Positions 21,401 through 63,141 of a stretch of DNA of 64,000 nucleotides are shown one piece after another. The first letter of the stretch is position 1. Every line of letters starts with the position of its first letter. The stretch spans positions 12,772,001-12,836,000 of the forward strand of contig JAMPIQ010000002.1 of NCBI GenBank assembly GCA_024699855.1, read 5' to 3'. The position numbers were made by a program, and so were the translations under genes. The notes beneath the pieces were generated by a model. It worked only from the letters and a program-made list of their open reading frames with translations, had not been told where the DNA came from and did not search any database. Source of the DNA: Aphelenchoides besseyi. Lineage: Eukaryota > Nematoda > Chromadorea > Rhabditida > Aphelenchoididae.

Positions 21401-24400
21401 AAAAACTCTTTTTCTTTTATAAGATATTTGCTTTCTGCTTCTTCTGTCGAAACTTTAACAATACTTTCAATCGTTTGATTGATTTCAGTCCGAAGATTGG
21501 CACAAGGTCGACAACGTCTGTTGAAACGAGGATCACCATCCGGTGGAACCCAAGGTTCTTTGGAATCAAGTAGACGAAGACGAGAAACTTCTTTTCGGTA
21601 ACTATTGAGCTTCTTTTATGAATAAGAACTGTGTGTTTAGGTTACGGAAGCAATCGAAATCACCCACTGGTTTAGAGAACGATGAATTGGCCAGTGAATC
21701 AGGTTGGTTGCTTAATATGCCTATACTTCCCGTTGATTCCTATTTCTCAATCATCTACTGTCCTATTTTATTTCCCATACGCACATTTTCGATTCGAAGC
21801 GATTTGCGAGATTCGGCTTTTCGGTAGTTTGTTTGCAGTGAATAGAGATTTCTGTTAATTAAACTGCAAGAAAACATCTGATTTTGTATACGATTGTGAT
21901 GCAATAACATCAGTCAATCGACCTGATTCTTGATTTTGAAAGTTGAGTTTGAAATTATTTGGGAATTGCTGTGTTGACGTTTTTAGCCCGAATTGAGGTT
22001 ATTTTGATTTTATCGATATTCATGTGTTGCAGTTCAATTTCTTTTTTTTGAGTTCTTTTCCCAGCTTTTCCTTGCAGTTAGCTCGCTGGTCGATCGGGAT
22101 ACCGGCTTCTTTCAACGTCGTCGTAAGGCCGCATCGCTACGAAGTGCCGGAGTTCGATGGAACATGCGATCGATGCGCTTACGTGGTACTGCAACAACCG
22201 CGGATTCGCCGAAGTTGGTGCATTCACCATTGGCCACAGCAACGCAATCATTCAGTGCGTTAGACGATCAGGCATTACATGAGTTTACGGCAAAAACTAG
22301 CATTGCCACTACCACCTCGTCCTCAAATCAATCCCCAATAATACACGAACCCCGTCATTCAACTCGAGGTCTGTACTTTACTGTAATTGTGCAGAGATTG
22401 TGATTGAAATAACACGTCAATGTTTTGTGTTCATGCGGTGGTATCGTTTTAGTGTATATAATACATTTTGATACACTCACTATTTCCGTATCTTCTCTCT
22501 TTGCACCCCATTCACTTCTGTTGCAATTGATGGTCGTCCAACGACTTTTCACTTTGATGTCCACAATCCACAGTTTTCAAAACGAATCATCTGATACGTT
22601 GATTTTAGTGCCATTAAACGCTAAAACTCGTGATAGCTTAAAACCGAGTCCGTCTGCTAAGAACTCGACAGCACAAGATGATGCAGCCACATCTTTCGAT
22701 ACACATACGTCGCCTGAACGACGCACGGGTACCACGAACTCAGTTTCCGGTTCACATCACGGACCACATCCGACTACAAATCCTCCAACACTGCCATGTA
22801 CTGCCGAAGATGACGAAGAGGAAATGCTTAAGAATATGCCGTGGATTAAAGTAAACAACAAACGGTACAATAACTTGAAATAATTTTCTAGGTTATGATT
22901 GGAATGATGAAACAATTCGATGTTAATTGTACACACGAAAAGAGTTGTACACCCTGGTGTTTTGATCGTGTGTATCGCCAATGTAAACGTTTGACTGACT
23001 CGTTTCGAGTCGTGTATGAAGATGCTTCTGCACATGAAAAGAAAGTGGATCGTCGAAAACAACTTAGCGAAGCCTGGCAATCGATGCAAGATACGAATAT
23101 CAAGGTAAGGATTGCATTCCGATTATCTTCATTTCAATTATAGAAACGGAGCTCAAATCCACGACGTGAAAGTGCGATTGTTCGACAAACGGGAATCGAA
23201 CGAGTACCGTTGGCATTGCGCGGTCTATTGATCGAAAAGTTGAGCGAAATTGAGGAAACAAAAAGCACAAAGAAAGAGAGTAATAATGTTGTTGAAACAA
23301 CATCTATTGATTTGAGTGAACTTACTGTCAAAAAGCATCCGGTAATCGGATACATTCAAAACCGAGTTTTCAATCTTGTTCATTCGCCATTGTCGTCGAT
23401 GTTGAAGAGTGCTGTAATTATGACTACCGATCAATATCGAGCAGTAGTCGGAATATCGTGGTCTTTACTCATTCATGCCGATGCGAATACCGTTGCAACA
23501 GCGGGTAAGAAAATCATTTTCATCAAATAGGCATCAAGTTTAGCCGCAATGTTTATTTGTTGTTCGGTAAAATGTGCCGACGATTGCATCAACACGATCA
23601 AACGCGATCTGTCGCACAACGATGCTTCTGTTCGATCGGCTGCTATTCGTCGTTTCTACGCTCTTTGGCGAAATCGTTTTCATGTTTGGTTGAAAATGGA
23701 AGATGGTGCCCAATTGATATTCAAAGTGCCACCGCCTGGAATCGATTTCACCCTTCCATCACCGCCAATTGGACAAAGTCAACATCCCGTAGTTGATCCG
23801 CCATGGATGCCACACGTAAAAACCAAAGTGGAAGAGTTGTCGTTGAAAGAGGAAGAGCATTCAACGAGTCAAACGATTATGACAATGACACGTACACGTC
23901 GCAAACAAAAACAAGAAATGGTGAAAAAAGCGGTTCGTGAAGCTGAGGAACGACAATACGAGCTGAGACAACATTTTCCACTTCGTGCAACTGCAGTTGT
24001 GCAACAAGCAGCTTATGAACCTGCACTCTTTCAACATCAAGCAATCAATCTTGTTCAACAGCAACAACAACAACAAAATGCTGAAGGATTCAACGACGAC
24101 TATGAAATGATGCATTCGGTGATTCCAGCTCGTCAACAAATGCCTGTTGCTCAACCGTTATTCCCATCGTCCATTTTGAGTGTTGTACCACAAATCGTAG
24201 AGATGTTTGACGACGTACAAGTCGATCGAGATGGTTGTTCGGTTGGTGATGTTTGTAGGCGAACAGCTTGGAGTTGTATTATCGAAGACTCGTCACTATT
24301 TCTACGACATTTTCTTGAGAAGCTTACTCACCGTGACAAACAGGTAGAATAATAAGAAAGTCCAAATTAACATTCAATGTTTAGGAATATTTGTTTGCAC

Positions 24401-27400
24401 TACTTCGCAAATTGATTCTTGCCTTTCGTCCACTGCCCAGCCAAACTGCGTATTCACTTCTAAACTATCTGTTTGGTTTTGTTATGTTTTACGTACGAAC
24501 GCCGTGTGAAGGATCGGATAAGTCGATGGGTTTGGCGTTGAGTGTAATTTGGTTAGTTACACCCTACGTTCATGGTCTTTATTTTAAAGATCTAAAACAA
24601 ACGCTTAAAAAAGAACAATGCGACGTAAGATCTATGCTACGATGCTTCTAAACACTACTATTTAGCAAGCACTAATGATAACAGCAAACGTTCCGAGTGC
24701 TAAGAAGATTATTGTTCATGGACCTGATAGCAGTAGTGGCGGTATCCCATCGCAATTTCCAATCCACGAAGACACCCAATTTCAACAAATCCTCACGGAT
24801 AGTTTGGATTTTTTCAATATTCCTGAAGACGAGTTAGATCATTACTTTTTGGTTGATTCGAAGACCGGCTTCATTCATAATCCAACTGCTTATGTTCGGT
24901 TCGTAACCTCAACTTTCACTCCAACTATGAAAACTATTATTTTCAGTGACTTTTACTTTTTCCATCGATCGTTTTATCCACAACTTACACTTGCCAAAAT
25001 GGATCCAAATACTGCTCTTTACAAAATGAAAACCTACGCATTTCAACAAAAACTCATCGAAACCGGAAAAGTTCTTTTAACTCACAACGCTCTAAGACAT
25101 AGTCCAGAAAGCGTGGTAGTCGATTCATGAAACTTCATACCAAGTTATACAATGAGTTTAGATTCCACAACGTATCTTCTTTTTACACGATGAGTTCACT
25201 CACTTGCCATCGTTTCCTCGTCGAAGTGTGGAGTCTTGTTTTGGTATGTATCAGGGAGCAATGGGAAACGAACTGCAAGCCATCGATTCAATGCATAAAT
25301 TTGTTTGGAGTAAAGTCAGTTTTCGAACCATTTAAATAACCTCATGATAATGATTTCAGTTGGTGAGCGACATGTTTGAAAAGATGGAAAACGCTTTCAT
25401 GTTCGGAGATCTGCATTTGTTCATTAATGTAATCAATGGTATCGTGATTATACATTGCGAAGACGTGCTTATCATTCGTCGTTGTATGGCCACTTATCTC
25501 ACGATGGCAATTCACTTTAGCACCCTGTTTGCAAGCAATGTAAGTTGACCAAAAAGTTAAGATTATCTCGCTTTAAGGGTTTCTTTTTGATTATGCCAAC
25601 ACTACTTCGTTGTTATAGTCAACGTCAAACGAATAAGTTGTTTAAACAGGTCATCGAGTTTGTTTGCAAGCAGTTTTACATTTTACATCGAAAACCGTTT
25701 TTGTTGCAAATGTTCGGTTCAATTGCTGACATTTGTGACCAGAATAACAACGATCTCGAGATTAATGCCATGCAAATCAAAGCCAAATATCTCTTCAATC
25801 TGCTTCTTGCTATGGAAATGATGAATGATCTTACCGACCAATTGGACATACTCACACTTGTTCCTTATCCCAAACCCTTAAAAGCGTTGGATTTGTGTTA
25901 TCGAGATGATCCTAATTCGTTCCTAATGCTACCTGATGCGATGGCGAGTTGTGTTACTGTTTGTGCTTTTTCGTCGGAATCAAAACGAAGTCATCAGATG
26001 TTATTGATTATGCAAGCGATTTTACCGCATTTTATTGCTCATCAGGAAGCCGAAACTTTGAATCAAAATAACAGTCCCGCCGCTCTAAAACACGAAATAA
26101 CAAGTTACACAACAATGTGCGTGGAAATGAAGACACTCGTAAACAGCTGTGAAGCATTGTTACGGTAAGTACCGAGAATACTCACTTGTAAACTTACGTT
26201 TCAGTGGACCAACACGCAACTTCGACATTGTAAATGCCGTCAATGAGCGCGGAAAATCGTTTATTGCCGATTCGCCACAGTTCTTCGATCCTCCAACAGT
26301 CGCAGATGACGAGCCGAAAATGAATACAACCAAGTAAGATATGAGCTTTCGAGTTCCGACTTAAATTTTAGTATCAGTACAAAAGAAAAGAAAACTCCTA
26401 TTGGAGCTTGGGATGCAAATGCTGACAACATGGAGTTACAAAAAGAGATTTTTCGTGGACCGCGAGATGCTTTTCTCTTGCTTTGTGCTTTGTTTATTGA
26501 GAAGGCGGGTGCTCGTCTCAAGGAATTGACCAAATTAGCTGCCAATGTTGAGCATACGAAAATACCCGAAGTGTTTGATCACAAATGTCATGTGGTTAGT
26601 ATATGAAGTTGGACCCACGGATAATTTGTTTGTAGAAAATCGGCGAAGTTGCAATGTCGTTGTTGAAAGTAGCGCCGTACGATTTGAGTGCAATGTGCTG
26701 TCAAGGACTTCAGAAGTAGAAGACAGAAGTTTATTCTTGTAACCAGTACACTTCAGATATTTCACGAGCATTCTGCCGATTGTCGACTGGTCGGTTGAAA
26801 CAAACCGTTCAGCTCTGAATCTTATTCTACGGCGTCTCGATAAAACGATTGCCAAGATTGCAAAGAAGCCGTCCGTTCGAAAACGAGCGAACTGGACAGC
26901 GATCGGAAACTGGCTAACTGGTTTATATCGAACTCTGTGCGCATATCCATATATTGCTCACTTGCATTCACTGAAGGTTGGCACGAAGTGTTAGAATAAG
27001 CAAGAACATTTTCTTCAGGCAATAACTCAAATGTGTCTTCGGTTAACGGTGGGCGATCATTGTACTGACGAAGTTGTTTCAAATGTCTACTCGGGATCAA
27101 ATCCGATGACAATTCTAAATGCCAGTGTACCGCCTCAATCTTTTTGCAATATTGTTCTTCGATTAACAGCATTTCTAATGCAAGCACTTGGACAGGTTAA
27201 CAAAAAGATGAAACAACTTCAGGACATTAAATTTGTAGATGGTATTTTCATTGGAAATCGTTTGTAGTCAAGAAGGAGTGGGGGTGGCTGCCGAACGTTT
27301 GGAAGCGATCTTATGTCACATTCTTATACCGCTTTTCCTTATGGCTGCCGTACCGGGAAAAGAAGCACCGCAATTTCAAGCCAAAGATCTTAACTATTGT

Positions 27401-37711: not shown

Positions 37712-38381
37712 ATGAGTCAATTGTCGCTAATCAGCAGTTTTCGGCAAGTTTCTGTTCGGATGATCCACGCATCTGCTTTGAAGTGAGTACTCTTCTTGTC
37801 ATTTGGATGATCGTTTTCTTTCGTTCAGTTCGTCCGTGTTCATGAAGAAACAAAAGAAAGTCGATCCGGAAGTGGCAAAACTGCGCGAAAAACGAAAACG
37901 ACGAAAACTTGAACGGGAAATTCGTTTGATGCAACGTGATGGCAAAACTCCGAAGCCGGTAACGGAGTTGTCTGTAGACGAAAAGACTTTGGAAGCTGTC
38001 GAGTGAGTTGATGAGTTAGACTTTCATTTTTTGTTTACTTTTAGTGAACTTCGTCGTGTTGACGTCGCTCTTGATGAAAACACAATCGATCAACGGGCCG
38101 TTATCTTGAAGGCATATTGTAAGTCCAGAAATCAGCTGGCAACTGCAGACAACCATTGGATTCGCACGATGATCAATGAACAGAACAAAGCACTCAATGT
38201 ACTCAAAACCATCTCACCGACTCTTTACGAATCAGCAGTTGCTCCAGACCCTTCATTTTTGCCTTTCAGTACTCGTGGTCCCGTTTATACACCGCCGTTA
38301 AAAGAATACATGTCTCCGGACGGTGAATATACAAACATAACACCGAATTACGTTGAAAACAAACCATCTTCTAAAACCTAG
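37712..38381 (+). CDS. mitochondrial large-subunit ribosomal protein mL40
   Basis: Component of the 39S mitoribosomal subunit. Exons 37712-37782, 37829-38002 and 38045-38381 give 193 aa, the usual size for MRPL40. The first 24 residues (MSQLSLISSFRQVSVRMIHASA) form an arginine-rich amphipathic mitochondrial presequence. The core has the lysine/arginine-rich KLREKRKRRKLEREIR, then a long helix with IDQRAVILKAYCKSRNQ, and the C-terminal PLKEYMSPDGEYTNITPNY, matching mL40. The start is the only in-frame ATG that supplies a presequence. An AATAAA lies about 30 bases past the stop (38412). Confidence 0.92.
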
Positions 38382-42022: not shown

Positions 42023-43066
42023 ATGGGGCAGTACAATCGTTTCGGCTATCAACAGCATGCGAGTGGTGGGGCAAACGAACAGTCCCGACGTAAACCACTA
42101 AGATTTCTGAAACCACGACAAGAAATTTGTGCACCATTAAAATGGTTGTGTTTCGCTCTAAACTGCGTCGTATTCGTAAGCTTGAGTTCTTTTGCTCATT
42201 CTAAACAGTTCGATTTAGCTTACGGGTGTTACTCTATTGGCCTTGGGAGTGTATTTGTGGATTAAAGATCCGCGAAGTGTTACGGCTGTTGAAGATGTGA
42301 TACTGAATTTGTCCGTAGCGTTGACGATTATTGGGCTGTACGTAAGTATCGTTTCATTGTGTGGACTATTCGGTTCATTACGTGATCACGCCACCTTACT
42401 TAAAATAGTCAGTTTATAATTCACGTCACAAACTGTTATCCCTATGGTGATTTCAGTCGGTATGGTTAGCGGCAACAAGTTTTGTGGCTGTGGTAATTGG
42501 CGTTTTTGGATTGTTTTTGATCTTCTACGCGGATTCGGCAGACATATTTTCCATGAATGCGATACTCACGTATGCCATTAAGAAGTATCATGTTAATCAT
42601 AACATGGCCGACATTGTTGATTATGTGCAAGAGAACGTAAGTTTGTATTACGATCTTTTAATTCGTTTACTTCTCATTTCAGCTCGAATGTTGTGGTATT
42701 CGTTCGCTTTCGCAAGGATATCGCGATTGGCACTTGAGTGATCAGTTTCATTGTAATCGAACCAATCTCTTTGTCAATCCGTATCCCGAACGATGTGGTG
42801 TTCCGTTTAGTTGTTGTCGTAAAAGTGTGCAACCGGATACGATCATACAATCTGGATCCTTGTTGCCGGCAATGCGCTCATTAGAATGTTGGCAGAATGC
42901 GCAGACAAAACGCCCACAAGAACTGGAAAACGATCTTTACATTCGCGGATGTACGGCACCATTGAGACAAACGTTCGAAAGTCATGCAATTCTAATTGGT
43001 TCAGCAGTTGCATTGGCATTAATTCCAGGAGTATGTTGGGCTTTTAACATTCAATATTTTATGTGA
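42023..43066 (+). CDS. TspanC8-group tetraspanin (TSP-12/TSP-14-like)
   Basis: Four-span membrane organiser. TspanC8 proteins escort the ADAM10/SUP-17 protease and in C. elegans promote Notch and BMP signalling. Exons 42023-42175, 42219-42411, 42458-42636 and 42683-43066 join to 302 aa. Features: short basic cytoplasmic N-terminus, TM1 (KWLCFALNCVVF), TM2 (LSVALTIIGLYVSIVSLCGLF) with FGSLRDHATLLK after it, TM3 (AVVIGVFGLFLIFY), then a large loop with exactly eight cysteines (LECCGI, FHC, RCGVPFSCC, LEC, RGC), the defining TspanC8 pattern, and TM4 (LIGSAVALALIPGVCWAF). The ATG at 42023 follows a TTG-opened frame; an extra 5' exon is possible. An AATAAA lies at about 43180. Confidence 0.93.
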
Positions 43067-43546
43067 TTTGGAGACAAAATCAAAACATTTCCACTAATCA
43101 CGTGTATTTGTATTCCGAGAGTAAGTGCATCGGAATGCAAATCATCCGACTGCTATTAAGCCGTGGAGTGGAAATATAAAATAAATGCTTTCGAACGTTT
43201 TCAAACAACGCAAAGTACTTTGAATTGAAACTGTTAATCCCGTTGTTAGACTACAATTTCTTAACATTCGACACTGTTGAGATTAAGAGCCTTTTATAAC
43301 CGATGACAAGCTAAAAAGTCACGTTGAATGTACAAATGAAAAATTTCTCAAAGTTTAATAGGTTTTTGCAATACAAAACCTTTTTGCAACTTTTCAATCA
43401 AAACTAGACAGAATTTTGAACTTGACGTCGAAATGATCATTCTCGAAAAGCATTGATTGTACGCCATTTCCGGATTAAGTGGCTTCTTTCCTGACAAAAG
43501 TAAAGTCCCGCTTTACAAGAACTATTTTCAGCTTTTTTACGTCTTC
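43067..43546. other. intergenic stretch
   Basis: This holds the 3' UTR of the tetraspanin (poly(A) signal at about 43180) and the leader of the next gene. The right end contains an ACTATTTTCAG acceptor ending at 43531, a likely trans-splice site 15 bases before the next ATG. Confidence 0.55.
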
Positions 43547-43972
43547 ATGGAATACGTTTTGGCACGTCAAATCGAATACCAACATTTTTTGCTTGATCGC
43601 GAAGCTCGTCGTAACGAAAGAAGACGACGACGAGCGGAATCGAAACGCGACAAACAAACCACATTGGAAGCAGGAACCAATCGTCCCCCACCGGTGCTTG
43701 TCGAACTTCCCAAACCTTCCAATGCAGAAGTGGTGGATCAACGGAAACGAAGAGCCAAACGTGCAACTACAAGTCTTTCGCCGCGACGAGCTGCCGAAGC
43801 TTCAAAGCCGACGAAACGTAAAGAGAAACGTCGTCGTGAAACCTCAGCGGGACCAACTGTTGGCATCACAACAACCTCCGCATCAGTTGCTATCGATCCA
43901 ACTGGGCGAATTCGGCAATGGGTTCTTCAACAATCAGATTTCGTACAAAAAGAAAAACCTATTGATTCATAA
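43547..43972 (+). CDS. 141-aa basic protein of unknown function
   Basis: A single exon with its ATG 15 bases after a TTTTCAG acceptor, which is why I start here and not in the longer open frame to the left. After MEYVLARQIEYQHFLLDREA the protein is dominated by Arg/Lys clusters (NERRRRRAESKRD, KRRAKRATTSLSPRRAAEAS, KRKEKRRRE), so nuclear or nucleic-acid binding is plausible. The end is more ordered (DPTGRIRQWVLQQSDFVQKE). No known domain is recognised. An AATAAA at about 44295 fits as its polyadenylation signal. It is not clearly in an operon: 480 bp separate it from the tetraspanin. Confidence 0.65.
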   Translation: MEYVLARQIEYQHFLLDREARRNERRRRRAESKRDKQTTLEAGTNRPPPVLVELPKPSNAEVVDQRKRRAKRATTSLSPRRAAEASKPTKRKEKRRRETSAGPTVGITTTSASVAIDPTGRIRQWVLQQSDFVQKEKPIDS

Positions 43973-44610
43973 CGCAGGGTATACTCTCTTGCCATTTTGC
44001 TTCCTATCGTTTTTCTAACATTCCAATTCCCGGCCACAGTTGTTCATTTCTATTGTCCGGTTAATTTTATTGTTCATCTTAAACTCAATCTTATGCTTCT
44101 GTTAAAGTTTAGAGATGTGAACGAACAGACAGCAGCCATTGTCACCGGTAGTTATCAAATATCCGATCTTTTATCGTCTCCTCGTCTTTGAAGCACTGCC
44201 ATTAATTGTTTGCAGCTTAAATTGCCACGATCGAATCTGATCGTAGACATTTGCGAATTCACATGAAATCTCTGTCTTTCGTTGTTTTCTTGTCAATAAA
44301 ACCCACTGAACTGTTAACATTGCTGCGTTTATTTCTGAATATACGACGCCAAAACAAAAGCGAAAAGGAGACGTGTGATGAAGTTCACTATGATGGTTGT
44401 TCAGAATGCGCAGAAAAAAAGGGAAAATAGACGGTGATTAGGAGCGTGGATGTAAAATCGTTTCAACGGATGGATAATTAGCGGAGTTTTGGTCGATTTT
44501 GTCCAGTCAAACATTGTAAGTTCTGTTGGCAGACACCTAAAAAAGATCTCGTAATTGATATGCACACACACACACGTCTTATTGATCGGGATCGTCCACG
44601 AATAAGCTTT
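43973..44610. other. convergent intergenic region with a CA microsatellite
   Basis: This region holds the 3' UTRs of the basic protein (+) and nematocin 1 (-). It contains a short CA dinucleotide run at about 44563-44577 and a + strand AATAAA near 44295. I see no ORF of interest. Confidence 0.5.
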
Positions 44611-45169
44611 TTATGACGCGTTGCACTTTTCTTTCGCGTCATCTTCTGCAGAGAAACATAACAGGGAAGTTTGTTTTGGCTACTTGTTATACCCCGCATT
44701 ACGTATTCAACTTTTAATTCATTTGTTAGTTGACGAAAACCACCCGCACAACTCTACGCATTTGAGATCAATCACCAAAATATTATCGTATAGCTGTGCT
44801 TTGAATTAATTTCAAGGTGTCAAACTTACGTCTAACGCAGCAGAGCTGATCGTTTACACATTCACCCGCAAGACCACCGAGGGAACATTGAGGAACGGGA
44901 CAAACTTCCGAGTTGTTGCATTCTTCAGATTCAAAACATGCTTTCGAAGTACAACAAACGGAGTTTGAAACACACAAACCGGCCAAGTTCTCGCCTAAAA
45001 TCGCTTATTCACTCTTACATTTCATCTGTGAAAACCACCAACCGCATTGACCGCAGCTGAGCGGTGAACGACCGTATCTCCGATAAGGACAACTGTTGAG
45101 GAAACAACCGAAACACACGTTGACAATCAAAATCAGCAACAAAGTTGAACGGCACATGTTTTTGTACAT
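44611..45169 (-). CDS. ntc-1: nematocin precursor 1 (vasopressin/oxytocin-type peptide with neurophysin)
   Basis: Secreted neuropeptide-hormone precursor; in C. elegans nematocin acts through NTR receptors in learning and male mating. Exons (-): 45169-45043, 44994-44830 and 44645-44611, phases 1 and 1, 108 aa. The ATG lies six bases after a TTCTACAG acceptor. Signal peptide MYKNMCRSTLLLILIVNVCFG, then CFLNSCPYRRY, identical to C. elegans nematocin, followed by GR: a glycine for C-terminal amidation and an arginine for cleavage. The neurophysin domain has the family spacing (SCGQCG, LC, VCC, AC, EEC, EVC, PQC, GEC, LCC, KC): 13 cysteines versus 14 in mammals, since the protein ends NAS three residues after the 13th. 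Exon 3 (11 codons, after a 184-nt intron) is the least certain part. Confidence 0.95.
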
Positions 45170-46461
45170 CTTTGTCTGTAGAAGAATGGAGTAGATGATG
45201 GCCGAATCAGTGAATCGTAAGAGAAGGCTCTTGTCAAACTGCCGAGTTACCAAATGACAACTAACCTGTTGTTGGTCGGTATTAACGAATGAAGAGCGGA
45301 ATGATGTTGAAGGCTCCTTAGAAGTCTTTACTTTCGCTTATGCCAACGACACTACTTCTTGTCTTTGTTATCCGATCATCTCGCAATATTTCGTCCGACT
45401 GTTGCGAGAAGATTGTAACAAACAAGAGAGTACAGAAATGTCTAATCGGATTCTGCGGCTTCAACGCGGCTTCAACGCGGCCGTTTCCTATCGATGTATT
45501 TCATCATGTGTTTATGATTTCAGTCTGAGCAGTCTATAACTTGTTTATTTAATCAACTTGATGGTTTGAGATTTGGTTATTTCGAATCTATGGGTTGCTT
45601 CAAAAATTTGGTCGATCAATCACCGTTTTTCCTCATAATGCGGCTAATGACGTTGTGGAAAGTTGATCTTACTTGGGCGATAAACTTTCCTTTTCCTCAA
45701 TGATCAGCAATCTCTGTTCACTTGAACAATTGAACATTCTCAGTACGAGTTTACTACTCAAAATCAGCTTAGCACATTAGTTTCCAACAAACAAATACGA
45801 TGGTTTTCATCCTTTCAATCGTTTAGAGTTATAAACTTGCAGGCTTGTTGCGTGCCAAATGTAAGACCAGACTCTAAGAGGTTTGCAGCCGGATGTTTGT
45901 TTTGGTCTATTTCATTAACTACAAAACCCACGAATTGTGAGTATATTTTGTGGTACTACGACAATTATGAATTACAGAATATGCTCTGGATCTTTTAAAA
46001 TTCGTAATTCGTCTTTCAACCTCTGTATACGCATCCTTTCGTCTTCTCAAATTTCCGTCGAGAGATCGCATCGATGACGACTTTTGTTAAAAGCCATGAG
46101 AGTTCATCAAAGCAGTGGAATTTTCGCCGACGCATGAAACCGCAACGTCAAAGAAAAGTAATGCATCATCGATGGGGTCGCTCCTTCGACTCCGCCCCAC
46201 ATCAGCTGGATTACAAAAGAATAAATACATCGAATGCTGCGAATGAGTAGCAGTTCTTGAACGAGAGAAAACATTTGGGCGTGGACTAACTTTTACTGGT
46301 CAGTAGCTAATCAACCGGTGGTTGGCGAAAACATTCAACTCCATTCGCTCGTTTTGCAATTTCTGTTTCTCAACTTTTCGGGAACGTTTATCGAGTCTGC
46401 AACTAGGTTACGGTGTTAGATGCTTCGTAAAGCGAATTACTTGCAAACTACAACCGTCGAA
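45170..46461. promoter_or_regulatory. shared divergent region of the two nematocin genes
   Basis: 1,292 bp separate the two start codons, so both nematocin genes must draw their upstream control from here. I see no coding exon. An 11-bp unit (cggcttcaacg) is repeated in tandem at about 45459-45482. No transcription-factor site can be named with confidence. The frame at 45340-45528 (+) has no supporting feature. Confidence 0.6.
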
Positions 46462-47041
46462 ATGTTCGCTCTTCGCCAAATCGTGATCTTCGCTCTAATT
46501 GTGCTGACCGTCGATGCTTGTTTCTTGAACTCTTGTCCCTATCGTCGATTTGAACGCGCAGGAGCCGAGAATTGTGGTACTTGTGGTGAGTATTTTACAG
46601 TCAAATTTCTTTGAGATCCAATTGGTCCTTTTGACTAATCAAACGAATCGCTTAGCGACACATTTAATGAACTAAATATTGTAGGTAAAGAAGGTGAAGG
46701 AATTTGCATAACCAATGGAGTATGTTGTTCGGAAACCGAATGTACGGAGGACAAATCATGTGACATCGCTTCGAGCTGTCCGCTGCCAACCTGTGAGATG
46801 GACAAACAAATCGGTTTTTGTGCCAGTTCAACACTCTGCTGTTCGGAAAGTAAGTTCGAGCACGAGGATTAAACTTCGGGTTTGACCAAAACGGATGTTA
46901 GAAATCTTTTGAATTCTGATCTTCGTAGCGTACTTCCGCTGGGTACATAGCAACGAATTGCACGAATCATTCGACCGACAATCTTTTCGTTCCTTTTCGT
47001 GACATTTAGCGGTGAAAGTGTGCAGTTGGTACGCTCGTTAA
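46462..47041 (+). CDS. nematocin-like precursor 2 (neurophysin paralogue with altered peptide end)
   Basis: Paralogue of the gene at 45169. Exons 46462-46585, 46685-46849 and 47010-47041, with the same phases (1 and 1) and a middle exon of exactly the same length (165 nt); 106 aa. Signal peptide MFALRQIVIFALIVLTVDA, then CFLNSCPYRRF. The residues after it are ERAGAENCGTCG: there is no Gly-basic amidation/cleavage site. A single Arg two residues on is the only obvious convertase-type basic site. The neurophysin domain keeps all cysteine positions of copy 1 (13 cysteines) but most other residues differ, implying an old duplication under constraint. An in-frame ATG at 46420 would add 14 polar residues before the signal peptide, so I prefer 46462. 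Exon 3 (VKVCSWYAR end) is inferred from phase and a TTTAG acceptor. Confidence 0.92.
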
Positions 47042-50000
47042 TTGAAAAATTGAAGATTCAAAATTTCTCTTTTCTAACACTTTTCAAGATCCACTTACTG
47101 TAAAAGCAGTAGCATCCGAGAAGTTTCTGATTTAAAAGTTGAAACATGCAAAGAAACTTAATTTCCGTTTATTTTAACCCGATTTGTCTTTTCAGAGTTC
47201 TGTCAACGAAATCTGAATTGCATGGTGGCAACGGCGAAAAAACTCAAACTTCGTTGAGGACAATTCGTTTACGGCCATCGAAAGAGCTTTCTAAGTCGAT
47301 GGAATCGATTTTAACGATCGAATGTACGTACCGTGAATGCCTTCTTACCTGTACCTATGAAGCACTCAGTTTGATCTCCAGTCGTGCCTTTTGCTCCGTT
47401 CAAGCCGCTATTCAGCTCTTCTTTACATTCCCATCTTTATAGTTGAAAGTGCAGTAGTTTTGATAGTCTTGTAATTTGCGTGTATCTCAAGTTTATACCA
47501 ATTGTTTCTATTTGTTTGAAATGCAAACTTTTACGGGTAAAATTAAATACAGTAATTTTAATGATACGTTATTCCTAATGTACAGTAGTCGTGCAAAAGC
47601 GCATGAGACCAAGTTCGTTGTGAATGTCAACAAACCAAATTTACAGCAGAAAAGAGCACGAGCTCAAGAACGGAATGTTGTTTTGTAGTATTTTGTGTGA
47701 ACGAGCCGTCGATCATAAAGTACGTGGTCCGTTCTTTCGCGAACTGGTGACAAACGAACGTTCGAAGAAATCGGAACGATTTTTACGCAACGTTTGAATT
47801 GTAGGTCATAAAAGCAGTTACCTTTGCAAAGGAAATGAGTTGGGGACTCGAAACTTGAAAAGTTGGGATTGTTGAAATGTTTGTACGTGCCACTGACAAC
47901 ATACAATTCAAAGATCTCCCGCGGTGTCAAAAACGGTGCTTTAGCGTCACAACCACAGATCTTTAGTCATCGGCGGAATAGAAGATTTTCTTCCAGAAAT
48001 GCGATTTCCCATTAAATCCACGGGCTCAATGTCTGATTATTGTTGAATTTGCTTGTTTTTCATGAGCTTAGTATACGAATTAAGTCTCTGATCGTGTGTT
48101 TTTGCTCTGATACCTTGTTTTCTAATAAAGATTTTGAAAGCGAGCTGTCGACTAAACCGGTCGAATGTGAATTTTAAAAACTACGCATCGGCTACTTTGT
48201 TTTTGTGTCTAATAGACCCATTTTTGTTATTAATACAAAGATCTAAGGCTGCCATCAAGACAAATAACTTCCGACCAAACTTTACAGTATCGTTCTTATT
48301 AAAATACTCACGATTCTGACGCTATTAAAAAGGTTCGATGATCATCAATTTACTGTTTGTTCGAAGAAAAATGGGCAAATTATAGTCTCCAACAAGTTTA
48401 AGTATCGTTTTTATGGATAAGAAGGTTAACGACTCGTACATCTTCACGCTCAAATGCAGATCTCTGAATTGTCATTTACATGAAATTTGCGAAGTGCGTA
48501 AGCAAGAGATTAGGAAGTAAATTCATGGGTTGGTAGAAGACGTTTAACGGCAGACGTTGATCGAAAGTTAACTACATGCTTTTGGGCTTATGCTTAATAG
48601 TTTTACTTTTTACGAAACTCGTCTGCGAGTGAAGTCATTGGAGATGTCTGGTTCTGTAGTTCGTTTTGAATACTATTTCTATGACACAGTGATATTATAA
48701 CATCCGTAGTCGAAGAATCAGATTAACGTGTGTTGCTGAGTTAATTGAGAGTGTTGTCGCTGAATACGTCATGTACATTAGTTGCGTGCAGTAAATTGTT
48801 GATAGAGAAAAGTCTAGAAACATCGCATTTCTGTGAACAACAACCTCTTGTTTTGAAAAGATAAATGATGTCAAATAGACTTCAAATAACTATGAAGTCT
48901 AATTTCACACCTTCAATAGGATAAACCGATACTCGAAGAATAGCTCATGTAATAAACGACAATCTAGCAAACGTTCGTGCTTCAAAGTTTACATTATTTG
49001 GCAGTTGAAGTGTCTGAAACTGGGAATTTCGATTGTTAACAAAGCACATATTAACCATTAGTAATTCAAGTTATGTTGGCACCGTTGAGAACCCAAAACA
49101 TAATCTTGTTCTTGTCGAGTCGAGAAAGCGCATTGTACTATTGAACATGCTCTTTTATATTACGCTTCCGGATTACTCAATTTTCTATTGTACACGAATT
49201 GCATTGCCGGAGACACTGAAAGCCACTAGTTTGATTAGTATAAACATTGAAAAGTATACGAACAGAATCGCGTGTGGTCGTTCAATGCACAACGATTCTT
49301 TGTGCTCAGATTTCATGTTGTCATAAAGTCAAAAGAAGGTTGTTGAAGTTCGTTGTTTTTTAAGGTAAAATGCGAGCCGAGAATTTCTGTCGCGAAAATG
49401 CAGTTGAACTTCTGTTTCGTATAACCATTTTCTATGCTTACTATCTTCTTCAAACCTTTGCACTTCGTACTCGTCGCGAGTAGTTGAAACCCAAAAATTT
49501 CTGCTAAAACGAGATGGTTTCTGTTGAGTACTTCAAGGATGCAAAACTTATGGTTCTACTTGAGATCTCCAAGTTTGTTTGTTTATCGGTATGAGCCAAG
49601 ACGATGACATGATTAGATTGGTATTTCAATGCGAAGTGTTCAAATTTAATGTTTGAATTTTGCAGTCCGACCATTATCGTTTCATCAACTGACTTTCGAA
49701 GATTAACAAACACCAAAATGACAACAATTTCAATGACCGGGCACTCAAGCAGAAGCTGATTCTTAACGTCCGTTAAAAGGTTTTGAGTTGTCTACAAAAA
49801 CGGTGCTCGCTTGTCCGGAAAAGCAAGAGTTGTGGTCTCTCCTATTGAAAACAACGTTTTGTTCACTTATCTTTGCCATTTTCGCAAACCTATTCAGTTG
49901 GGGTTCATCCGTTCGTTTGAACCGATTCACATTTTCTCCATTTTCCTTGCAAGTTTCCCATCATAGCGATTGTTTTCAACAGCATTCGCTCAACTTCTTT

Positions 50001-54487: not shown

Positions 54488-56503
54488 ATGATCCTAAACG
54501 TTGGCATAGGTTTCGTAATTCTTTTTATTCAGGTTATGTTCACAAATCTCATCGACATCGATAAACAATGTCCACGCGGTGTGAATTATAGCGATGTTAG
54601 CGAATCCGAGTGGCTTTCGACTCCATTCGACGATTTGTGTTTACGAGTAAGGTTAACGGAAAGCTGTTGTTAAACTGTTCATTATTTGCAGAGGTTCTTT
54701 CAGCGTATGAATGCCCATCTACGACGCTACAATCGATGGGAAGAACTTGTTATCACAGCACTTTACGTAATCATTTGTCTATTGGCACTAATTGGAAACG
54801 GATTAGTGAGTTGAGATGAGTCAGCGGCTCTAAAGATTTCATTGAAGGTTATCATAGCTGTAATACGCAAAAAAGAAATGCGAACGAATCGAAATGTTTT
54901 GATCGTGAATTTGGCGATTTCAAATTTCTTACTTGCTGTTGTTACTGTAAGTTAACGGATTGAGCAGAAATGATTGTCGAGTGGAATTGCTGAAAACTTG
55001 TTTTTAAAGATTGAAATACTAAAAGCCATACAATTATTCTCAATCTTATTCTGAATACCAACGATTACAGGTGCCCTTTTTGTGGTTGCCATCCGTTGAC
55101 TTCGAGTTTCCGTATTCGCGTTTCTTTTGCAAAGTAGCAAACGTGCTTCCGGCCGCCAATGTTTACTGCTCCACGTTGACTATAAGCACGATGGCAATTG
55201 ATCGGTACTATTCTGTCAAACGTATGGGAAACACGAATGGTCAATGCTTTCACGCAATCATCATTTCGATATTGATTTGGATTGCATCGTTTTTGCTCAG
55301 TTTACCGCTATTCGTTTATTACAACACTACCTTCTTATATTTGATCAAAGACGTTGTCGTTTTTGATCCCATACAAAACGTTAGTCTAAGTCGGAGTTAT
55401 GGTTGGAAACAATGTCGTTTGTCACCAGAAAGTAAATTGGAAGGTCAAGAAGCGAATTCGGATGTCGATTCGCAGGCCCGAATGATACAAGTGGGTTTGG
55501 AAGCTGTCAATTTCTTTAAGAAGAAAGTTTAGTTGGCTATGAGTTGTCTACAAGTTCTATTTCTCTATGTGATTCCGTTGATCTCGCTTTCGATTTTTAA
55601 TATGAAACTAACGAAATTTCTCAAAATCAATGCAAAACATATGAACAGAGCTCGAAACGGAACATTCCGCCGTGAATCTTATTTCATTCCCAATCAAGTG
55701 TCCAGCTATGCCATTAAAGACTCGAATTCGAAAAAGGTTTGGTGAATCTTAATTAGCAGTTATGTTTGATTTGGTTTTCAGATTGCGGACCAACAATCGA
55801 GTTCAAGCAGCGGAAATGGAGCACAAAGTCCCGTGGAAAGAGCTTCTGATCGCCGACGCAATCGTACAACTATGTTGCTAAATGCAATGGCTTTAAGCTA
55901 CGCGATTCTTTGGGCTCCATTCGTACTTGTCAGTTTGATTATTGACTTGGAAATTTTGCCTGTGGTAAGTGAAATGTAGTGAACATAATCATCATAGCGA
56001 TATTCTAGGAAAACAACGCTGGAATCATTGAGCGTATTGATCAATGTTGCAAGCTTATTAGCATTCTTTCTATCGCCGTTAATCCGCTTCTCTACGGATT
56101 CCTTAATTCCAATTTTCGTAATCAATTCACGGACATTTTCAACAAGCTCGTTTGCTGGACAAGTAACGATCGTCGCCAGTCGAACCGAAGTGCTTACACT
56201 GCAATTCGAAGGTATAGCCATCATTTTGAACCTTCTTACAGACTTTTTTAGTCGAGATAATAGATCGCATTCACTGTTTGAAAACGTCCAAAATGCGTGG
56301 GGATCGATGTTTTCATTACGAAACAGTTTGGAGACCCAGAATATCAAAGGGTAAGTCACGGAAATGAAGATGTTCATTGATTTGTGTTTTCCAGTGTTCC
56401 TGATCGATCGAAGAGTTTGAGTTCGGAAGCGTGTGTTTTCACAACCAACAATTGTGCCAAATCGGAGGCTGAGAAAAAGTTGCTTGCCGTGCCAAATGTT
56501 TGA
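54488..56503 (+). CDS. NPY/NPF-like neuropeptide GPCR (NPR type)
   Basis: Rhodopsin-class receptor, probably for an NPY/NPF or related peptide. Exons 54488-54646, 54692-54805, 54848-54946, 55071-55490, 55533-55736, 55782-55964, 56009-56211, 56252-56350 and 56395-56503; all phases agree, 529 aa. The N-terminus is hydrophobic ([18 protein letters not shown]), perhaps a signal peptide. TM1 [22 protein letters not shown]2 [20 protein letters not shown]3 with [16 protein letters not shown] (DRY), TM5 [19 protein letters not shown]6 [19 protein letters not shown]7 NPLLYGFLN. The third intracellular loop and tail are long and Ser-rich. The pattern fits C. elegans NPR receptors, not the vasopressin-type NTR receptors. 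Several introns start GTGAGT or GTGGGT. The receptor converges on the three-finger gene (126 bp apart). Confidence 0.9.

Positions 56504-61582: not shown

Positions 61583-63141
<1,559 letters not shown>

Follow-up and report, generated by a model that had tools for sequence, protein, structure and literature searches.

The question raised by this locus is whether the nematode Aphelenchoides besseyi carries two working genes for nematocin, a vasopressin/oxytocin (VP/OT)-type hormone, and whether the two have parted in function. C. elegans has a single nematocin gene, as the sequence-only reading of this DNA had stated and as the available text of PMC3527849 supports, and invertebrates typically have one VP/OT-type gene (available text of PMC7181382). 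Duplicated precursor and/or receptor genes are said in PMC7181382 to occur in nematodes among other lineages, a remark that fits the two nematocin receptors of C. elegans, ntr-1 and ntr-2 (PMC3527849). We propose, with good confidence, that ntc-1 probably underwent an old, local and inverted duplication that left a conserved, amidated copy on the minus strand and a retained but diverged copy on the plus strand, the latter with a hormone predicted to be unamidated, and that the pair has undergone sub- or neofunctionalisation. The window is the whole 64,000-nt stretch that was analysed (C2:12772001-12836000), and the genome searched comprises 47,386,574 bases in 31 contigs, among them C1 (18,141,642 bases), C2 (17,779,264 bases) and C3 (9,972,226 bases).

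Two intact, divergent nematocin precursor genes are present in the window, at 45169-44478 on the minus strand and at 46462-47257 on the plus strand, with the following features.

44478..44536, minus strand: third exon of the minus gene, 59 nt, ending in VCQQNLQCLTGQNRPKLR and a stop codon; best of 18 acceptors (score 38, next 15)
44830..44994, minus strand: second exon of the minus gene, 165 nt, neurophysin core with a phase-1 intron on either side; spliced model and genome search match
45043..45169, minus strand: first exon of the minus gene, 127 nt, signal peptide, CFLNSCPYRRY-GR and start of the neurophysin; spliced model and genome search match
45074..45106, minus strand: hormone CFLNSCPYRRY, then Gly-Arg (amidation and cleavage); read from the sequence
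45170..46461, no strand: region of 1,292 bp separating the two start codons; spliced models
46462..46585, plus strand: first exon of the plus gene, 124 nt, signal peptide, CFLNSCPYRRF-ER and start of the neurophysin; spliced model and genome search match
46519..46554, plus strand: predicted hormone CFLNSCPYRRFE, without the amidation Gly, RFER having the R-X-X-R pattern; read from the sequence, with putative processing
46685..46849, plus strand: second exon of the plus gene, 165 nt, neurophysin core; spliced model and genome search match
47196..47257, plus strand: third exon of the plus gene, 62 nt, ending in KFCQRNLNCMVATAKKLKLR and a stop codon; best of 30 acceptors (score 38, next 15)

Manual splicing of both genes yields precursors of 116 aa each, encoded by three coding exons with phase-1 introns and GT/AG ends; VP/OT-type genes of other taxa also have three coding exons (PMC7181382). 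Each precursor has a hydrophobic leader, judged by eye, with CFLNSCPYRR and its Cys1-Cys6 directly after it. The spliced models and their intact frames bear out the sequence-only reading where it described two complete head-to-head precursors of signal peptide, CFLNSCPYRR and neurophysin. They reproduce the distance of 1,292 bp that it gave from start codon to start codon, and the exon count, the intron phases (both introns phase 1) and the 165-nt middle exon are common to both genes, as it had noted, as is the cysteine spacing, the hormone and neurophysin columns being identical between the copies.

The third exons are a different matter. They had been taken to end at 44611 and 47041, and both were outscored by 44536-44478 and 47196-47257. 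Candidates were required to start at an AG acceptor no less than 40 nt from the start of the intron, to be in phase with exon 2 and to reach a stop within 150 nt, which gave 18 candidates on the minus side and 30 on the plus side, and they were scored against the other gene's chosen third exon, so that the ranking is partly circular. The top candidate on each side carries two cysteines and scores 38 against 15 for the runner-up, and the CC-x4-C-x5-C spacing is found in a single candidate per side (44536-44478 and 47196-47257). Three minus-side candidates ending at 44611 score 9, 10 and 10 and two plus-side candidates ending at 47041 score 15 and 10; all of these carry one cysteine, with which the neurophysin would keep 13. 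The minus acceptor at 44577 provides two cysteines in the wrong spacing and scores 13. Fourteen cysteines are the standard of the neurophysin family, and with the chosen third exons both neurophysins are complete, having 14 cysteines each in the same columns. All 16 cysteine columns (2 in the hormone and 14 in the neurophysin) are matched by cysteines in a provisional C. elegans precursor sequence, a check that lies outside the exon 3 scoring.

The hormone of the minus copy, CFLNSCPYRRY, is identical to the sequence of C. elegans nematocin (PMC3527849, PMC7181382). The plus copy reads CFLNSCPYRRF-ER, with F for Y and with Glu where the amide donor Gly stands in the minus copy, and the combination of amidation Gly and basic cleavage residue is thus present in minus (YGR) and absent in plus (FER). 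The claim that CFLNSCPYRR occurs in both precursors stands as far as the ten-residue core goes, but the two peptides are not equivalent (Y-GR vs F-ER). Loss of the amidation donor, which had been overlooked, is the best hint of a split function that the sequence offers. R-X-X-R is a convertase cleavage pattern, and since both RYGR and RFER keep it, a convertase may still cut the plus precursor, which is predicted to release CFLNSCPYRRFE as a free acid; cleavage at RR instead would produce CFLNSCPY. The selected list in Table 1 of PMC7181382 gives an amide for 38 of 39 VP/OT-type peptides, the exception being that of Ciona, CFFRDCSNMDWYR, which lacks the amide yet has an identified receptor (PMC7181382), and because of this exception the amidation Gly is not strictly family-defining.

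The ten-residue core is identical even though 7 of its 30 nucleotides differ between the copies, all of them synonymously, a pattern that neither gene conversion nor recent copying would readily explain; with random substitution at seven sites, 1 and 2 of 400,000 trials left the core unchanged. Beyond the hormone, blastp of minus against plus gives 42/102 identical residues (41%) and 102 bits without composition adjustment, and 45/112 (40%) and 90.1 bits with it. Identity at the non-cysteine neurophysin columns (16/68, permutation mean 4.5) was reached by none of 20,000 permutations on the fixed alignment. Over 114 aligned codons the copies differ at 57 first, 51 second and 75 third positions, and the NG86 estimate of dN is 0.68 with dS undefined, in keeping with the description of neurophysins strongly diverged apart from their cysteines. 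At the DNA level exon 2 is no more similar than shuffled sequence under the scoring applied (a score at least as high in 183 of 500 shuffles), and the case for paralogy is built on the proteins, the exon structure and the hormone core. Intact frames, synonymous-only core changes and column identities above all permutations support the suggestion of a constrained, old local duplication: strong divergence around an identical core implies an old duplication, and selection appears to have maintained the hormone core in both copies.

Both precursors cover positions 2-79 of the 79 in the Pfam profile Hormone_5, and with 18.4 bits (minus) and 20.3 bits (plus) they stay below its cut-off of 27.2 bits, which is a threshold for detection rather than a criterion of structure; the provisional C. 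elegans precursor scores 35.2 bits. Automated annotation may therefore leave them unnamed and may miss similar copies elsewhere. A PDB sequence search at E 0.001 returned no match, to a solved neurophysin or otherwise, for either precursor, and in a looser search with the minus precursor neurophysin II appeared at E 4.2 among five chance-level matches.

When either precursor was searched against the 47.39 Mb at E<=10, no third nematocin copy was found and these two places alone were matched, a copy count that is a lower bound since the search scores the best candidates only. Each precursor gave five exon matches, all in the two loci, and the provisional C. elegans precursor as query gave three matches in the same two loci. 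The minus copy is identical to that provisional sequence at 40/84 positions and the plus copy at 35/84, and the minus copy stands tail to tail with a tetraspanin gene.

42662..43063, plus strand: exon of a tetraspanin whose large extracellular loop has 8 cysteines (by eye); PF00335, 4.5e-12

The best PDB match of this tetraspanin is Tetraspanin-15 (E 0.0017), and we take its eight-cysteine loop to be of the TspanC8 type. The C. elegans gene tsp-14 (F39C12.3) presumably adjoins ntc-1 (F39C12.4); a literature search by name found neither F39C12.3 nor F39C12.4. The minus copy is probably the ancestral locus because it is closer to C. elegans, encodes the same hormone and, if tsp-14 does adjoin ntc-1 there, likewise has a tetraspanin neighbour. 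A long and very basic frame at 43480-43970 (plus strand) ends about 500 bp before the stop codon of the minus nematocin gene, and may encode the cytoplasmic tail of the tetraspanin or belong to a gene of its own.

The age of the duplication relative to the split from the C. elegans lineage can be read in two ways. The motifs CPxPxC and CQxNLxC and a C-terminal KLR are common to the paralogues and missing from the provisional C. elegans precursor sequence (which may end early), and the neurophysin alignment score is 58 between the paralogues, compared with 38 (minus) and 28 (plus) against C. elegans; the common motifs and the higher mutual score suggest that the duplication postdates the split. 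By non-cysteine neurophysin identity, the minus copy is as near to the provisional C. elegans precursor (13/57; plus copy 10/57) as it is to its paralogue (13/58), by which the duplication may be older than the split, in a comparison of three sequences, one of them provisional.

The sequence-only reading had raised co-regulation from one shared promoter region, and this finds no support in the region between the genes, whose two upstream 646-bp halves are no more alike than shuffles (184 of 500 reach the score); a shared enhancer may be compatible with such dissimilar halves. Similarity also lies within the range of shuffles for the 3' flanks of both genes (347/500) and for intron 1 (257/500), and for intron 2 it is slightly above it (7/500 reach it), a marginal result. 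Repeats in 44300-47500 consist of short families of 14-30 nt alone, and no Rfam families or tRNAs were found in the window.

Three other accounts of the pair have to be weighed against duplication with functional divergence. The two genes might form one dosage or expression unit, producing equivalent peptides from genes that differ in place and time of expression, as the identical CFLNSCPYRR core and the divergent layout with start codons 1.3 kb apart would allow; the dissimilar upstream halves and the difference in predicted C-terminus and charge (Y-NH2 vs FE-OH) speak against it, and we consider it unlikely. Less probable still is that the plus copy is on its way out, under relaxed selection or in decay, with the amidation signal gone and no active hormone produced. 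In a family with near-universal amidation (38/39 in Table 1 of PMC7181382), a missing amide donor is what such decay might look like, but in the plus copy the frame, the GT/AG splice sites and the 14 cysteines of the neurophysin are all intact and the core has changed only synonymously, despite a dN of 0.68, and a neutral duplicate of such age should by now be broken. Misjoined haplotypes can yield inverted neighbouring copies, yet an assembly artefact or contaminant is hardly credible here, as a dN of 0.68 is far above haplotype divergence and both genes lie within a single 17.78-Mb contig with no third place matched.

We hence favor the old inverted duplication of ntc-1, with two functional genes for nematocin prohormones as its proposed outcome. 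From the minus precursor, CFLNSCPYRRY-NH2 would be released with the neurophysin as its carrier, and the cleavage and amidation site for this is present in the sequence; the plus precursor would be cut at R-X-X-R and trimmed to a peptide extended at its C-terminus and ending in a free acid, for instance CFLNSCPYRRFE. Both peptides would act on nematocin-type GPCRs, that of the plus copy most likely with altered receptor preference, potency or stability, so that sub- or neofunctionalisation would be expected rather than a simple dosage effect. A further possibility, which we put forward tentatively and with some doubt, is that the VP/OT system of A. besseyi has been split between amidated nematocin and free-acid CFLNSCPYRRFE with a receptor preference of its own, in a parallel to vertebrate vasopressin and oxytocin that arose independently.

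Candidate receptors were sought with a provisional oxytocin-receptor core sequence as the genome query, and nine matches were obtained at E<=1e-4. Solved structures were compared with three of these, and the other six were judged from their translation.

C1:3279023-3279223: VP/OT-receptor-like locus; best PDB matches vasopressin V1a and oxytocin receptors, then orexin receptor 2
C1:7265756-7265965: VP/OT-receptor-like locus; best PDB matches V2 and V1a receptors
C2:15839636-15839839: receptor-like locus; best PDB matches GnRH and oxytocin receptors, interleaved

The genome thus contains at least two VP/OT-receptor-like loci, each assigned from 67-70 residues, in line with the two receptors of C. 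elegans (ntr-1, ntr-2; PMC3527849). With a retained second hormone copy and at least two such loci, co-divergence of hormone and receptor after duplication would become testable in a small nervous system. Downstream of the plus nematocin gene in the window is an exon of a rhodopsin-type peptide GPCR (55023-55529, plus strand; PF00001, 7.2e-13), which among solved structures is closest to the apelin and angiotensin receptors; the best 60 of 98 matches include no VP/OT receptor. Elsewhere a near-identical GPCR exon stretch, muscarinic acetylcholine receptor-like by eye, occurs three times, at C2:15.50 Mb, C2:2.29 Mb and C3:9.14 Mb, the last adjoining a Tc1/mariner transposase-like frame (by eye).

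Several known systems provide a measure of what is new here. The minus copy shares with C. elegans ntc-1, whose peptide is CFLNSCPYRRY-NH2, the hormone sequence and, against the provisional precursor sequence, the 16 cysteine columns; A. besseyi differs in having two divergent genes, in the F for Y and E for Gly of the plus copy, and in neurophysins that are otherwise strongly diverged. The vertebrate vasopressin/oxytocin pair, which is traced to an inferred tandem duplication in the ancestral gnathostome (PMC7181382), likewise goes back to local duplication of one VP/OT-type prohormone gene and has peptides that differ at only a few positions, whereas the A. besseyi pair belongs to a separate lineage, is head-to-head and has one peptide predicted to be unamidated. 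Octopus cephalotocin and octopressin and other cephalopod pairs are likewise lineage-specific VP/OT duplications in an invertebrate (PMC7181382), but in Octopus each gene has its coding sequence in one exon and each peptide carries an amide, in contrast to the three exons and the one predicted unamidated peptide of A. besseyi. The peptide of Ciona intestinalis, CFFRDCSNMDWYR, is C-terminally extended and unamidated like the one predicted for the plus copy and has an identified receptor; Ciona is a urochordate, and the available text of PMC7181382 mentions no amidated sister gene. If the tentative split into two hormones is correct, CFLNSCPYRRFE would be the second unamidated member beside the 39 peptides in Table 1 of PMC7181382, after that of Ciona.

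Among the matches listed in a search of open-licence PMC titles and abstract openings, there was no report of a nematode with two nematocin genes. For parasitic nematodes, 15 nlp genes have been described as recently duplicated (PMC8764417); in the available text ntc-1/nlp-75 is not included, the species named with these duplications do not include A. besseyi, and the alignments are declared not to be exhaustive. The A. besseyi transcriptome was reported to contain 24 non-insulin, non-FLP neuropeptide genes (PMC3956754), and the words 'nematocin', 'vasopressin' and 'nlp' are absent from the main text available for that paper; an earlier sighting in its supplements is possible.

The window also contains an unc-80-type gene (23531-25127, plus strand) with UNC80 and UNC80_C, an exon of the mitochondrial ribosomal protein L28 family (38007-38378, plus strand) and an exon of an adaptor-complex medium subunit (62138-62836, plus strand). 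GH45 genes are typical of Aphelenchoididae, and on the same contig a GH45 cellulase cluster (C2:1045551-1636398) has six matches within 0.6 Mb, the last two of which abut and may be one gene.
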